A stretch of 53,980 nt of DNA from an uncultured Bacillota bacterium (lineage in GTDB: Bacteria; Bacillota; Clostridia; Oscillospirales; Oscillospiraceae), in the NCBI GenBank assembly GCA_947650875.1, contig CANSXE010000006.1:1-53980 (forward strand), read 5' to 3'. Below, piece by piece: positions 16,871 to 21,264 of the stretch (positions are counted from its first letter, which is position 1; each line of letters starts with the position of its first letter). Both the position numbers and the translations under genes were made by a program. The notes beneath the pieces were generated by a model that was not told the origin of the DNA, did no database searches, and saw nothing but the letters and a program-made list of their open reading frames with translations.

Positions 16871-19684
16871 ATGAGACATACCACATCCTTCCCCCGCCGT
16901 GCGGCGGCATTTTTCCTGGCATTTCTTCTCCTCCTGCCCACGGCCTACGCCACCGCGGGAGAGCGGAAAATACAGACCTCCACCCAGATTGTGGACGGCC
17001 TGACCTATAAAAATACCGTCACCGAAAACGGCGGCAGCCGGGTGGAGAGCTTCTCCCTGGAGCTGTCCCCCGACAGCGTGGCCCGGCCCATCCTGCTCCA
17101 GGGCTCGGGCACCATTTACGCCGGCGCCAGCATCAACAAGGCGGTATCCAGCGCCCAGGAAGCCGGTTACCATGTGCTGGGCGCCATCAACACCGACTTT
17201 TTCTCCATGTCCACCGGCGTGCCCATCGGAATGGTCATTGAGGACGGCATCTATAAGTCCAGCAACGACGGCGAAAACGCCATGGCCATCAGCGACAGCG
17301 GCATCTCTATTGTGGAGCGCCCCCAGGTTACCATGTCTCTGTATGACCAGAATACCGGTCTCACCGTAATTCCGGACAACTTCAACAAGGCCCGCCACGA
17401 GATTGGCGGCATCTACCTGCTGAACGGATACTTTTCCACCGTCTCCACCCGCAGCGAAGGCAGCGGCTGGTACGTCCGCATGAAGGCCCTCCCCGACGCC
17501 CACACCGGAAAAGCGCCCGAGCTCACCATCAACTCCTCCCTCACCCTGCAAGTGACGGAGCTGCTCCTCTCCGACCAGTCCATCGTCATCGGCCCGGACG
17601 AGTACATTCTCACCGCCGCCGACCCCTCTAACCGCAGCGACGCCTTTTCCGCCTTCCAGGTGGGAGACACCATCACTCTGTCCACCTCCTGTCTCGATCC
17701 CGTCCTGTCCGAAGCCCAGTGGGCCTGCGGCGTGGGGGACATTATGGTGCGCGGCGGCGCCATCACCGACTCCTCCTCCTGGACTTACGCCAAGGACGGC
17801 CGGCAGCCCCGCTCCGCCATGGGCATCCGCCCTGACGGCACCGCGGTTTTCTACGCTGTGGACGGCCGGCAGTCGGGCTATTCCGTGGGTCTCAGCCAGT
17901 ACAACCTGGCCGACGAGCTGCTCAGCCAGGGCTGCACCACCGCCGTCAACCTGGACGGCGGCGGCTCCACCTCCCTGTCCGTCTGGGTGCCTGGGCAGAC
18001 CGGCCCCGCCATGCAGAACAAGTCCTCTGACAGCCGGCCCCGGAGCTGCGCCACCTACCTGCTGCTGGTCACCGACCAGCGGGGAGACGGCACGCCCCGG
18101 CGGCTGGCCCCCAAGGAAAACGGCATGACCGTTCTCTCCGGCTCCTCCCTCCCCCTGCCCCAGGCCGCCGCCATTGACGCGGGACTCAACCCCGTCTCCG
18201 CCAACCTGGACGGACTGACCTACACCTCCCTGAGCGGCCTGGGAACCGTGTCCGGCGGGGTCTACACCGCCGGAGGGTACGCCGGAACCGACACCCTGCG
18301 CATCACCGCCGGCAATCTTGAAGGCTCCGCCCAGGTCCATGTGGTAAACCAGCTCACCGAGCTTAAAATCACCCGGTCAGGCAGCTCCTCCGCCCTCACC
18401 TCTCTGTCCGTCAAGCCGGGGCAGCAGATTCAGCTGGCCGCTTCCGGCGCCTACTGGGGCCGCACCGCCCTGCGGGACTTCACCGGTGTGAGCGTCAGCG
18501 TTCAGGGCGGCGTGGGCACGGTGGACCAAAACGGCCTGTTTACCGTCGCCCAAACCCTGAACGGCAGCGGCTCCATCACCTTCTCCGCCGGCGGACTGAG
18601 TCACACCATACAGGTCTCCTCCAGCTACATCCACAACGACGTGCAGCCCGGTCACTGGGCCTACAACGCAGTGGAGTACTGCTACCAGAAGGGGGTATGC
18701 AGCGGCATCAGCTCCACCCAGTTCGGCCCGGACAACTCCATGATCCGTGGGGACTTCATGCTCATGCTCTACAACGCCGCCGGCCGGCCGGCCGTCAGCA
18801 CCCCCTGCACCTTTACCGACGTATCCCAGAGCGACTACTACTACACCGCCCTGGCCTGGGCCCAGGGCAAGGGCCTGGCTTCGGGCACAGGGGGCGGCGG
18901 CTTCTCCCCCAGGGACAAAATCACCCGGGAACAGGCCTTCTCCCTCCTCCACCGCTACCTGCCCATCATCGGCAAAGACTGTCCCGACGGGGACCTGTCT
19001 GTGCTCAACCAGTTCAAAGACAGCAAGAGCATCGCCGGCTACGCCAGGACGGCGGCCGCCACCCTGGTGTCTCAGGGGCTGGCCTCGGGCAGCGGCGGAA
19101 ACCTGGACCCCAAGGGCACCCTGACCCGGGCCCAGATGGCCTCCCTGCTCTACCGCGTACTGGAGCACACCCCCATTCAGACCGACCCCACCACCCCTGT
19201 TGACCCCGTTTCTCCCGGCAACTACGCCCTGGCTCTGGACCAGAGCCAGCTCACCCTGGCATCCGGCGGCAGCGCCACCCTGAAGGCCGTCATTCTGCCC
19301 GCGGTGTCCAACGCCGCCGTCACCTGGACCAGCAGCAACCCCGACGCGGCCGTGGTCTCCTCCACCGGCATGGTAACCAACCTGTATCCCGGCACAGGGA
19401 ACGCCGCCGTCACCATCACCGCCAGCTGGAACGGCCTGACCTCCAGCTGCACCGTCACCTGCCAGCAGGCCCAGCACACCGGCACCGTCACCAACGCGGA
19501 GAACGGTCTCAACGTCCGCTCCGGCCCCGGCTCTGACTACGGCCGGGTGGGCGGCCTGAAGCCCGACGCCAGTGTGGTGGTTCTGGGCCAGCAGGAGGGC
19601 TGGTATCAGGTCCTCTTCCGCAACCCCGACGGCCAGGCCGCCATCGGCTATGTGTCCGCGGACTACCTCACGCTGAACCGGTAA
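16871..19684 (+). CDS. Secreted phosphodiester glycosidase (NAGPA domain) with SLH, Ig-like and SH3 domains
   Basis: A 937-aa exported protein. A signal peptide covers residues 1 to about 29. A phosphodiester glycosidase (NAGPA/DUF2233) domain spans about 80-400, with GAINTDFFS near 100 and the hallmark NLDGGGSTSL at 360-369. Three SLH repeats follow at about 595-765, each with the anchor motif as MIRGDF, ITREQAF or LTRAQM. A Big_2-type Ig-like domain (about 785-865) and an SH3b domain with LNVRSGPG (about 870-935) complete it. NAGPA-type enzymes remove phospho-linked sugars, fitting a role in trimming wall glycopolymers. SLH domains would tether it to pyruvylated polymer made by the adjacent csaB operon. 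GC-rich codon use matches the neighbours. Confidence 0.9.
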   Translation: MRHTTSFPRRAAAFFLAFLLLLPTAYATAGERKIQTSTQIVDGLTYKNTVTENGGSRVESFSLELSPDSVARPILLQGSGTIYAGASINKAVSSAQEAGYHVLGAINTDFFSMSTGVPIGMVIEDGIYKSSNDGENAMAISDSGISIVERPQVTMSLYDQNTGLTVIPDNFNKARHEIGGIYLLNGYFSTVSTRSEGSGWYVRMKALPDAHTGKAPELTINSSLTLQVTELLLSDQSIVIGPDEYILTAADPSNRSDAFSAFQVGDTITLSTSCLDPVLSEAQWACGVGDIMVRGGAITDSSSWTYAKDGRQPRSAMGIRPDGTAVFYAVDGRQSGYSVGLSQYNLADELLSQGCTTAVNLDGGGSTSLSVWVPGQTGPAMQNKSSDSRPRSCATYLLLVTDQRGDGTPRRLAPKENGMTVLSGSSLPLPQAAAIDAGLNPVSANLDGLTYTSLSGLGTVSGGVYTAGGYAGTDTLRITAGNLEGSAQVHVVNQLTELKITRSGSSSALTSLSVKPGQQIQLAASGAYWGRTALRDFTGVSVSVQGGVGTVDQNGLFTVAQTLNGSGSITFSAGGLSHTIQVSSSYIHNDVQPGHWAYNAVEYCYQKGVCSGISSTQFGPDNSMIRGDFMLMLYNAAGRPAVSTPCTFTDVSQSDYYYTALAWAQGKGLASGTGGGGFSPRDKITREQAFSLLHRYLPIIGKDCPDGDLSVLNQFKDSKSIAGYARTAAATLVSQGLASGSGGNLDPKGTLTRAQMASLLYRVLEHTPIQTDPTTPVDPVSPGNYALALDQSQLTLASGGSATLKAVILPAVSNAAVTWTSSNPDAAVVSSTGMVTNLYPGTGNAAVTITASWNGLTSSCTVTCQQAQHTGTVTNAENGLNVRSGPGSDYGRVGGLKPDASVVVLGQQEGWYQVLFRNPDGQAAIGYVSADYLTLNR

Positions 19685-19687
19685 CAA

Positions 19688-19929
19688 AAAAATCCCCCTT
19701 GTAAAAGGGGGATTTTGCAGACTGTCAAAAAAGCCCCCCTCTCAGAGGGGGGTGGCACGGCGGAGCCGTGACGGGGGGAGTTTTGAAGCAAAAAAGTGAC
19801 ATTGATTTGTTGCTTTACTCCCTCAGTCACCGCCTTCGGCGGCGACAGCTCCCTCAAAGAGGGAGCCTTAGAGGGCGGTAGAGAGTTTTTCGACAAGCTG
19901 AAAAATCCCCCTTGTAAAAGGGGGATTTT
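19688..19929. repeat. Composite element: MITE-like core flanked by 29-bp direct repeats
   Basis: Two identical 29-bp copies of a terminator-like hairpin (AAAAATCCCCCTTG onward; 19688-19716 and 19901-19929) flank about 184 bp. Inside, CAGACTGTCAAAAAA (19718-19732) and TTTTTCGACAAGCTG (19886-19900) form imperfect terminal inverted repeats (12 of 15), and between them lies the second copy of the spoIIA-spacer palindromic repeat (19733-19867). The first hairpin also ends the upstream gene's transcript. No protein is encoded. Confidence 0.75.
19733..19867. repeat. Palindromic dispersed repeat, copy 2
   Basis: Same modules and order as the copy at 102-214: a GCC-pyrimidine end, GGCACGGCGGAGCCGTGAC, a variable AT-rich centre, ACTCCCTCAGTCACCGCC, a short inner palindrome, and GAGGGAGCC. 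The centre is about 20 bp longer here, with the rest well conserved. Confidence 0.8.
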
Positions 19930-19977
19930 ACTATCTTCACCATTTGGGAATTTCTACATCCTTTACACATTTTCCTC

Positions 19978-20006
19978 TTGTATTATCCGACAAAATATGC
20001 TATACT
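19978..20006 (+). promoter_or_regulatory. Promoter of the structured RNA
   Basis: TTGTAT (19978-19983) and TATACT (20001-20006) with a 17-bp spacer. The predicted start near 20012-20014 coincides with the 5' strand of the long-range closing helix described below. Confidence 0.65.
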
Positions 20007-20011
20007 ATCCT

Positions 20012-20335
20012 CACGAGGCAAATAAAGGCAGAGCGTGAGGTGCCGTCAACACCCCACGCTCCTGCGGGGGTGTGCAAGCACCCACACAACAGCATTGCTG
20101 TACCAGCTCCTATTATAACGGTTTTCCCCTCTCTTTTCAAGGCCCGTTATAAAGAGTTTGTGTCTTGACATATGCGGTGTGGGTATTCAAAACCCACGCC
20201 GCTTATATTTGTCTCGGCGGGAAAACCTGCGCGGGGAGTTTGATCCCTCCTCAAAGTGCGCTCCCCCCGCGGGCGGAACCGCTGAGAAAACAAAGAGACG
20301 GCCTGTAACGGCTGTCTCTTGGAATGGTTGTAGCT
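20012..20335 (+). ncRNA. Candidate structured noncoding RNA or long structured leader
   Basis: About 320 nt of non-coding, highly foldable sequence. CGAGGCAAATA (20014-20024) pairs with TATTTGTCTCG (20206-20216), closing a multi-hairpin domain containing stems at 20031-20061, 20113-20152 (nine perfect pairs TTATAACGG/CCGTTATAA) and 20174-20202 (11 pairs). A rod follows: CTCGGCGG (20213-20220) with CCGCTGAG (20279-20286), then a 13-nt helix (20226-20238 with 20261-20273, one mismatch) and a tip stem TTTGA/TCAAA with loop TCCCTCC. The closing helix and the rod share bases 20213-20216, so they may be alternatives. A last hairpin lies at 20294-20319. Size and layout could fit a raiA-motif-like RNA or another class; identity is unproven. 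Confidence 0.6.
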
Positions 20336-20336
20336 T

Positions 20337-20498
20337 ATGCCTGATTATCAAAAGATGTACCTGACCATGGTCCGGGCCAACGCGCAAGCTGTTGACATTT
20401 TAATCAAGGCCCAGCTCGAATGCGAGGAGCTGTATATCTCCTCACCGGAGCCTGAGGTCACAGCGTTGGAGTTCAACCCTCAAAGCCCTCTTGGATAA
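20337..20498 (+). CDS. Small protein (53 aa)
   Basis: A 53-codon frame, MPDYQKMYLTMVRANAQAVD to EFNPQSPLG, with a helical, acidic character. Similar short proteins with an MPDYxKMY-type start are, from memory, common in Oscillospiraceae genomes and prophages; function is unknown. No good ribosome site is visible (only GGAATGG about 13 bases upstream), and the ATG comes 17 nt after a 10-bp hairpin, so translation may depend on the leader structure. The stop lies inside the following terminator hairpin. Confidence 0.55.
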   Translation: MPDYQKMYLTMVRANAQAVDILIKAQLECEELYISSPEPEVTALEFNPQSPLG

Positions 20499-20511
20499 GG
20501 GGGCTTTTTTT
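20482..20511 (+). terminator. Rho-independent terminator
   Basis: AAAGCCCTCTT and AAGGGGGCTTT (one G-U pair) around GGAT, followed by TTTTT. It overlaps the end of the 53-aa ORF and ends the structured-RNA transcript. Confidence 0.8.
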
Positions 20512-20518
20512 GTGCTCT

Positions 20519-20959
20519 CTACTCCAGGTCCTCAATCTGCATCCGTTTCAAATCCTCCAGGGTATCCCGCCGGCCCTTGTAGTGCAGCCAGATGCCGCCA
20601 AACACCGCCGTGGGGATATTGCTCACCAGGAAGACCACGCCGGCGACGATCAGGGTTCTGGGGTGGAACTCCACCTCCACCCGCTCCTCGGCCCCTGTCT
20701 GGGCCGGGACTTCCTGCCCGTTAGGCCCCACATAGCTCGCGCCGCCGGTGACGATGGCGCCGCGGACAGCGCCGAACGCAGCCAGGCTCAGCGTCAGCAG
20801 CAGGGACAGCGCCAGGGAGATGCCCGGCAGGATGAGCCCCAGCTTCACGTTCTTCCGGCACAGCCACACCTGCAAAGCCACCAGCAGAGCGATGGGGAGC
20901 ATCATCACAAACAGATAGATAATCAGGCCAAAAATGCCCGCAACAGAAGCCATTGCCAT
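20519..20959 (-). CDS. Small membrane protein of unknown function
   Basis: A 146-aa protein with three or four hydrophobic segments: about residues 6-32, 40-65 and 103-125. A polar Gly/Glu-rich loop separates the second and third segments, and the tail is charged (RRDTLEDLKRMQIEDLE). It starts one base after the DUF2089 gene ends (TAATG), with GGAGG 7 bases upstream, so the two proteins are coupled. Regulator-plus-small-membrane-protein pairs of this kind are frequent with DUF2089. Function unknown. Confidence 0.7.
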   Translation of the reverse strand: MAMASVAGIFGLIIYLFVMMLPIALLVALQVWLCRKNVKLGLILPGISLALSLLLTLSLAAFGAVRGAIVTGGASYVGPNGQEVPAQTGAEERVEVEFHPRTLIVAGVVFLVSNIPTAVFGGIWLHYKGRRDTLEDLKRMQIEDLE

Positions 20960-21264
20960 TACGATTCCTCCTTATTCCTCGTCTTCTTATACTCCGCAAT
21001 CAGGACCTTGGCGGTGTCCAGGTCCAGTTTTTCGTTCATCGCCAGCCGCTTGATGGTGGCGATGTAGGGGTCGGCGGCGGTGTTCTCCGTCAGCTTGATT
21101 TTCTGGATCAGCCGGTCCAGCCGCAGGCGCACCGTGGGGTAGGTGACGCCGTACTGTCCGGCCACCTCCTTCAGCGACCCGGAAGCCAGGATGAACTTCT
21201 TAATAAAGGCCACGTCCTCCTCCTCCAGCCCGGCCATCCACTCGGGCAGCAGTTCCATCGCCAT
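20959..21264 (-). CDS. DUF2089-family HTH regulator
   Basis: A 101-aa protein, MAMELLPEWMAGLEEED onward. The order of LEEEDVAFIKKFILASGSLKEVA and the helix-turn-helix around YGVTYPTVRLRLDRLIQKI is typical of DUF2089 proteins, predicted DNA-binding regulators often paired with a small membrane protein that may act as an anti-factor. The start at 21264 follows AGGAGGTG by 6 bases; the frame extends upstream across the promoter but is not coding there. A palindrome between the -35 and -10 boxes suggests that it regulates itself. Confidence 0.8.
   Translation of the reverse strand: MAMELLPEWMAGLEEEDVAFIKKFILASGSLKEVAGQYGVTYPTVRLRLDRLIQKIKLTENTAADPYIATIKRLAMNEKLDLDTAKVLIAEYKKTRNKEES

Follow-up and report, generated by a model that had tools for sequence, protein, structure and literature searches.

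A multicopy chromosomal leader element of Oscillospiraceae and related bacteria with an opposed promoter, a predicted antisense RNA and hypervariable loops

The window, that is, the whole 53,980-nt stretch of DNA analyzed here, is contig C6 of a draft genome (2.09 Mb, 77.3% complete) of an uncultured member of the Oscillospiraceae. The element under study is located on its plus strand at positions 19978-20511, directly downstream of and in the same direction as a gene (16871-19684) whose 937-aa product contains SLH, phosphodiester glycosidase, SH3 and Big_2 domains. The intervening stretch (19688-19931) contains two terminator-like hairpins of almost the same sequence (AAATCCCCCTT...), one at 19689-19716 and one at about 19902-19931, with a REP-like repeat (CTCCCTCAGTCACCGCC...) between them; by eye, a repeat resembling the latter also occurs just upstream of several element copies in another genome, G122. 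The element opens with a sense promoter (19978-20006), TTGTAT at 19978-19983 and TATACT at 20001-20006 with a spacing of 17, which scores 8/12 and was therefore not called by our promoter scan with its cut-off of 9/12. The predicted sense leader RNA, the putative attenuated transcript, has presumed ends at 20013 and 20212 and forms a domain closed by helix P1, in which CGAGGCAAATA (20014-20024) pairs with TATTTGTCTCG (20206-20216). Upstream of the gene lies P6 (20174-20202), a terminator-like hairpin whose T-rich tail, TTATATTTGT, has an interrupted T run; the 3' strand of P1 resides within this tail. Folding of 20013-20220 yielded a z of -7.17, with none of 200 shuffled sequences being equally stable. 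In the longer MFE fold, a rod (20213-20286) and a further hairpin (20295-20320), similar to one in the relative L002, precede an ORF of 53 aa (MPDYQKMYL...; 20337-20498), and a terminator-like hairpin recovered in a scan (20482-20507) is located at the end of this ORF, all on the plus strand.

The structured element at 19978-20511 is real. An earlier note on this DNA had described the 17-spaced promoter, P1, the rod, the hairpin ahead of the ORF, the lack of a good ribosome site at the latter and the terminator 3' of it, and all of these were found in place, P1 being part of the MFE fold. The proposed competition between P1 and the rod also agrees with our data: the 5' strand of the rod, CTCGGCGG (20213-20220), shares 20213-20216 with the 3' strand of P1, and the complementarity of both is conserved. 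The TCCCTCC tip of the rod, described as complementary to ribosome sites, was located at 20244-20250 but is not conserved, as L003, L010 and further relatives have other tips, and the reading as a tip against ribosome sites was rejected. Identity with raiA or 6S had been suggested as well. However, neither the window nor 12 relatives reached a family threshold with the covariance models of Rfam 15, and matches at E up to 10 were chance-like and all below threshold; these and other Rfam families were accordingly rejected. What stands of the interpretation is a promoter-led structured RNA that is possibly a cis-regulatory switch and possibly of a new class. The earlier note covered one strand and overlooked a minus-strand promoter, the antisense RNA and the terminator-like nature of 20174-20202. 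The key feature among these is the conserved, predicted antisense RNA, the hairpins of which are, as judged by the base changes described below, those on which selection acts within the 5' portion of the element.

A scan of 19500-21000 on both strands returned a sole promoter-like site scoring at least 9/12, namely TTGAAA-17-TATAAT (11/12) on the minus strand at 20140-20112, inside the leader. The RNA predicted to start from it (minus strand, 20018-20105, both ends presumed) would be about 88 nt long, complementary to the first ~90 nt of the leader, and would consist of three hairpins and a U-rich end, the latter being the complement of the 5' strand of P1. Hairpin a (20090-20100, P4 on the plus strand) has the form CAGC-loop-GCTG with a mostly constant loop, hairpin b (approximately 20066-20085, P3 on the plus strand) has a loop that is hypervariable between paralogues, and hairpin c (20030-20062, P2 on the plus strand), which was identified as terminator-like with a U-rich tail in the minus-strand scan (20062-20030), is hypervariable in its apical part. 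In a plain MAFFT alignment, 95.0% of the cells of this fold are paired, compared to 34.5-54.8% in a slid control, with double changes at 17 of 24 pairs; for 30 diverse sequences the values are 96.5% and 22 of 24, in an alignment that was fitted to the structure.

BLAST with 19980-20511 matched 56 of 400 genomes of the family at E up to 0.01, many of the matches being short chance similarities; six loci matching at about query positions 127-169 alone (L019, L024, L027, L030, L038 and L040) were set aside as fortuitous resemblances between promoter-like sequences. With R1, a covariance model built for the antisense strand from 21 sequences, which matches the window at 20104-20014, the element was found in 142 of the 400 genomes, 96 of the 245 good ones and 56 of 106 genera. 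Since this search scored no more than 10 candidates in any genome, copy numbers taken from it are lower bounds. The genome of the window has five strong copies, and R1 found no second element in the window contig. A DNA pattern scan recovered 72 stretches in named records, the genera including Flavonifractor, Pseudoflavonifractor, Lawsonibacter, Colidextribacter, Flintibacter and Oscillibacter and the cultured hosts including Pseudoflavonifractor phocaeensis and Flintibacter muris, and 25 of the stretches belong to one draft genome, JAAWQS01 (G122; L185-L243). This genome has at least 25 copies, and 8 of the 10 matches listed for it are less than 300 nt from a contig end, suggesting that the assembly breaks on the element repeat and that the true copy number is higher. 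A broader model from 30 sequences (R2) gave matches in 19 genomes among 391 of the class, with ten other families accounting for 17, and, more weakly, in 8 of 398 genomes searched in other classes of the phylum. Among the distant matches, 43 loci were inspected, and an antisense-type promoter of at least 9/12 lies beside the match at 10/10, 15/16 and 10/17 loci of three sets; within the second set, that of L269 is away from the usual place, and of the remaining loci of the third, six reach a score of 8 and one is truncated where its contig ends. Four loci, L176, L180, L260 and L278, appear questionable or of another kind. L176 and L180, two weak matches in one genus with an antisense-like promoter, may represent a separate branch or chance, and the next ORF at L180 resembles, by eye, a phage terminase small subunit. 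Phage and plasmid collections contained no match at the sensitivity of distant BLAST.

For the counts we used 119 elements, 23 found via BLAST and 96 chosen, mostly as strong matches, from the R1 list, so that the set leans towards strong matches and the antisense-strand model; for the helix tests below, the duplicates L138 and L146 as well as L072 and L075, which end too early, were removed from the 119. An antisense promoter of at least 9/12 with a spacing of 16-18 is present in 117 of these 119 elements. It lies 6-10 nt away from where the antisense match begins, outside the model by which the elements were found, and the plus-strand sequence around it varies. A sense promoter of at least 8/12 lies upstream in 113 of 119, mostly 5-10 nt before P1 and in some cases further away. 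To place the 3' strand of P1 independently, we used P6, which was located in 113 of 115 elements, as an initial swap test (z 19) had been circular in placing P1 by P1 itself. This helix does covary: with own versus swapped partners, P1 reached a z of 18.6 in 113 elements, exceeding all 1000 permutations, in a test that, as all own-versus-swapped tests used here, takes no account of relatedness among the elements. A threshold on the P1 score left 105 elements for the rod and antiterminator tests and the foldings and 113 for the wobble test. The closing complementarity of the rod is likewise conserved (z 13.7, 105 elements). The weakest helix of those tested was P5 (z 3.1), the 3' strand of which, GTTTGTGT (20156-20163), may form a bulged pairing with ACACAAC at 20084-20090.

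Which strand a helix serves can be read from its wobble pairs, since a G-U pair of one strand corresponds to an A-C mismatch when the other strand is read. With the register picked by a score that is neutral between the strands, GU versus AC counts on the plus strand of 113 elements were 136 vs 28 for P1 and 195 vs 7 for P6, and 16 vs 148 for P2, 0 vs 174 for P3 and 1 vs 29 for P4. These counts are open to two possible biases, as P1 had been placed by a search allowing GU and most elements had been found by the antisense-strand model. We therefore repeated the analysis on the 22 usable elements of the 23 found by BLAST, with P6 placed without P1, and obtained 26 vs 2 for P1 and 41 vs 3 for P6, and 3 vs 31, 0 vs 22 and 0 vs 10 for P2, P3 and P4, respectively. 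Both runs thus identify P1 and P6 as structures of the sense RNA and the three 5' hairpins as structures of the antisense RNA, and both strands look like they form functional RNAs.

P6 has a median energy of -23.6 kcal/mol in 105 elements, and at least six T within 12 nt at or after its end were counted in 101 of 107 elements, a number that includes the duplicates L138 and L146. The 5' arm of this hairpin has complementarity to a segment made up of P3's 3' strand and the linker behind it, within the region covered by the predicted antisense RNA. In the window, this candidate antiterminator pairs ACCCACAC (20080-20087) with GTGTGGGT (20177-20184), both on the plus strand. At the level of the family, own partners fit better than swapped ones (z 4.4, 0 of 1000 permutations). 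Column by column, with 99 of 113 elements usable, three of the six columns surpass every one of the 2000 permutations, another two surpass all except 9 and 68, respectively, and the sixth lacks covariation (77 paired, 78.2 expected). A C.A mismatch occurs in 39 of the 99 anchored elements, and the pairing is without a sense-strand wobble bias (GU 36 vs AC 60). When folding was confined to the leader up to and including the 5' arm of P6, the antiterminator had a mean P above 0.5 in 86 of 105 elements, compared to 167 of 525 foldings (32%) with its strand shuffled, and once P6 was complete it prevailed (P > 0.8) in 81 of 105. In the window copy, the antiterminator has a mean P of 0.16 and a maximum of 0.21, and P6 is at 1.0. 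The predicted pairing draws some support from the family and is weak in the window copy.

Aligned paralogues within the genomes G122, G275 and G327 are nearly constant in promoters, stems and the third loop and hypervariable in the loops of P2 and P3. Among 154 within-genome pairs from 23 genomes, one pair has the P3 loop in common and none the P2 loop or both. The 25 copies of JAAWQS01 comprise 22 P3 loops and 19 P2 hairpins in 25 combinations, all of them distinct, and the P4 loop is common to 211 of 300 pairs. As only about 0.1 of these 300 pairs would be expected to match at both loops, the evidence resides in the variability itself rather than in the absence of such pairs. Between the 22 closest copies, differences per site amount to 0.58 in the P3 loop and 0.27 in upper P2, whereas the two promoter spacers have values of 0.14 and 0.17 and the strands of the P2 stem 0.00; the spacers are perhaps also constrained, and the excess in the loops thus favours, and does not prove, selection for difference. 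Fast neutral drift could likewise produce such divergence, since the two strands always remain complementary. Hypervariable loops amid constant promoters and stems would be as expected for private antisense pairs: complementarity is automatic in a cis pair, and, by analogy to plasmid incompatibility, avoidance of cross-talk would be an obvious reason for the loops to diverge.

To characterize the genes behind the element, we chose ORFs led by a Shine-Dalgarno sequence blind to signal peptides and scored them by a home-made rule for signal-likeness: 78 of 101 were signal-like, compared to 43 of 316 control ORFs. This replaces an earlier count of 90/117, which was biased by a bonus for signal-like ORFs. 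Pfam searches with the 101 proteins, some of them truncated, identified BspA-type LRR in 30 and SLH in 26; RE_MjaI, a restriction endonuclease, matched two of the 101, those of L161, L162, L166 and L171 not being among them. The four other strong copies in the genome of the window precede a lipoprotein-like gene, a gene for a WG-repeat/SLH protein, a secreted-looking fragment and a gene for a DUF4230 protein. As it lacks a scored ribosome site, the 53-aa ORF of the window is not counted among the 101; its product has no match in Pfam, NCBIfam or PHROGs. Similar proteins of 53-61 aa (M[PV]DY[KQ]xMYL...) were read in the window, L008, L012, L014, L016, L017, L018, L021, L026, L036 and L037, with two copies in L017, one of which has an internal stop. 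In G122 such a protein is encoded with a strong ribosome site behind some element copies, and in three of these (L071, L073 and L074, the last with a G-U) a CCAUAC/GUAUGG pairing could, by eye, mask the start codon. The small ORF, for which the earlier note had proposed a switch, is just one among several kinds of cargo. As a constant partner it was rejected, since a heuristic choice of cargo picked it in no more than 5 of 117 elements, and the family also occurs at loci fetched for the ORF alone (L008, L012, L014 and others). Behind more distant matches we observed, as further small-protein cargo, a DYKKMY-like ORF without a scored ribosome site 392 nt behind the element in another class (L279), a Spo0E-like protein (L178) and proteins with a SymE_toxin domain above the Pfam cut-off (L179 and L265; E 2.9e-12 and 4.8e-11). 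Two other distant relatives precede a serine recombinase (L257, 159-1358; Resolvase, E 4.5e-36, and Recombinase) and, at L276, a protein looking by eye like a nuclease encoded by a transposon.

Antisense attenuation is familiar from the plasmids pT181 and pIP501, and pT181 uses antiterminator pairing. We consider it likely that the element is a chromosomal, multicopy counterpart, a cis-antisense pair which controls transcription of the following gene. In support of this, both promoters, the strand-specific structures, a terminator-like hairpin, hypervariable loops and an association with signal-peptide genes are seen in the sequences. As in an attenuator, an opposed promoter would give rise to an antisense RNA covering the 5' part of the leader, and an apparent intrinsic terminator, with an interrupted T run in the window, lies between leader and gene. 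From these features we infer transcription, duplex formation, antitermination, the direction of control and the absence of cross-talk. Transcription from the sense promoter would produce a leader that reaches P6 and its U-rich tail about 190 nt downstream, and the opposed promoter would direct synthesis of the ~90-nt three-hairpin RNA against the first ~90 nt of this leader. Without the antisense RNA, the CCCACAC-like strand at 20080-20087 would act as an antiterminator by binding the 5' arm of P6, and the polymerase would continue. If the antisense RNA is present, two of its loops would kiss their complements in the nascent leader, the duplex would extend and sequester the antiterminator strand, and P6 would form and stop transcription. 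Since sense and antisense strands mutate together, the loops are free to diverge, and their divergence would provide every one of the many paralogues of a genome with an antisense RNA that controls it alone. Features that speak against this reading are, in the window copy, the weak antiterminator, the interrupted T run and the poor ribosome site of the ORF, and, in the family, the C.A mismatches, the column lacking covariation and the missing wobble bias of the antiterminator along with the 32% reached by its shuffled control. P5, using the same strand as the antiterminator, could favour termination even without the antisense RNA.

The main rival to attenuation is control of translation through the competition between P1 and the rod. 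Here, the same cis-antisense pair would act mainly on translation or mRNA stability, similar to CopA/CopT or hok/sok, by shifting the balance between P1 and the rod such that a ribosome site is hidden or RNase III is invited. That both structures need 20213-20216 and are both conserved in their complementarity fits this, as do, by eye, a hairpin enclosing the ribosome site in place of the rod in relatives from other families (CCCTCC...GGAGGG before ATG in L271 and L268) and the pairing that could mask the start codon in G122 copies. However, the rod of the window is distant from the ORF start, and the terminator-like hairpin between the antisense region and the gene, with its run of at least six T in 101 of 107 elements, would be superfluous. 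We regard translational control as unlikely, if worth keeping in mind. Considerably less probable is a type I toxin-antitoxin or addiction family in which the small protein is toxic, the antisense RNA serves as antitoxin and surface genes gained the cassette later. The SymE_toxin domains behind L179 and L265 and the at least 25 copies in one genome, some followed by a small DYKKMYL protein, would agree with such an origin, whereas the signal-likeness of 78 of the 101 ORFs led by a Shine-Dalgarno sequence and the lack of any Pfam, NCBIfam or PHROGs match for the window ORF argue against it.

A metabolite riboswitch with an incidental antisense promoter appears more improbable still. One example would be the SLH motif, described in Stav et al. 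2019 (PMC6429828) as a riboswitch candidate of Synergistaceae, Clostridia and Negativicutes that precedes SLH genes in ~60% of cases, and SLH domains were found here in 26 of 101 cargo proteins. However, the antisense promoter is kept in 117 of 119 elements, wobble pairs assign the 5' hairpins to the antisense strand, and two loops are hypervariable rather than conserved, alongside some stretches of the element that are conserved. Finally, the sequence might be suspected to be a dispersed repeat or mobile element, inverted in structure on account of mobility and not of regulation, from at least 25 copies in one genome, from 8 of the 10 matches listed there lying within 300 nt of a contig end and from the serine recombinase behind L257. 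This is hardly credible given the strand-specific wobble bias, two placed promoters, the association with a gene class and phage and plasmid collections without a match at distant-BLAST sensitivity.

The raiA motif and 6S RNA are structured, promoter-led RNAs of Firmicutes; the element differs from both in its two-strand design and in matching no Rfam family. In the ColE1 RNAI/RNAII system, a short three-hairpin antisense RNA opposes the 5' end of a long RNA, with specificity set by the loops. The element resembles this system in that its predicted antisense RNA likewise has three hairpins and faces the beginning of a longer RNA, but it has neither a replication primer nor a plasmid context, and its leader runs into a protein gene. 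With type I toxin-antitoxin systems such as SymE/SymR and the clostridial modules it has in common a cis-encoded, here predicted, antisense RNA and, behind two distant relatives, the SymE_toxin domain. However, the three characterized type I modules of C. difficile are convergent overlaps (PMC6563280), whereas the antisense RNA of the element would cover the leader and most of the scored cargo is signal-like. Compared by context, the SLH motif is the closest published motif, as it is likewise found in leaders of genes for S-layer homology proteins, in Clostridia among other groups. It was, however, published as a riboswitch candidate, the word 'antisense' not occurring in the main text of PMC6429828. 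The two families may overlap; if they are the same RNA, the SLH motif is reinterpreted here and the riboswitch candidate may be recast, and otherwise the family appears undescribed in the literature that was searched. The RNA may also be among the thousands of candidates, some on both strands, that PMC8040213 reports.

Control of a plasmid replication gene is not what is found at these loci, as the cargo consists of signal-like and small proteins and no plasmid matched at the sensitivity of distant BLAST. Like pT181 and pIP501 (PMC5415839 and PMC3753616), the element combines a leader carrying a terminator with a predicted antisense RNA against the 5' part of that leader; unlike them, it is chromosomal, occurs in many copies per genome and precedes surface genes and small proteins rather than a plasmid rep gene. 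Changes to the loop and upper hairpin of engineered pT181 attenuators led to orthogonality, according to PMC3753616 and PMC5415839, and the former describes whole orthogonal sets of antisense attenuators obtained by loop and upper-stem changes. Comparable sets of switches seem to have arisen naturally in chromosomes, one genome having at least 25 copies, and the copies often precede surface proteins of gut-type bacteria. It might tentatively be speculated, at somewhat less than an even chance, that the family represents an extensive natural collection of antisense attenuators orthogonal to one another, in which one architecture is used by many bacteria of the phylum and new loop 'addresses' in each copy provide every surface or small-protein gene with a private switch, so that family members would be set independently, perhaps cell by cell. 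If true, this would offer a testable mechanism for how gut-type bacteria set their surface, a source of natural orthogonal regulators and a direct measure of how RNA pairs avoid cross-talk.
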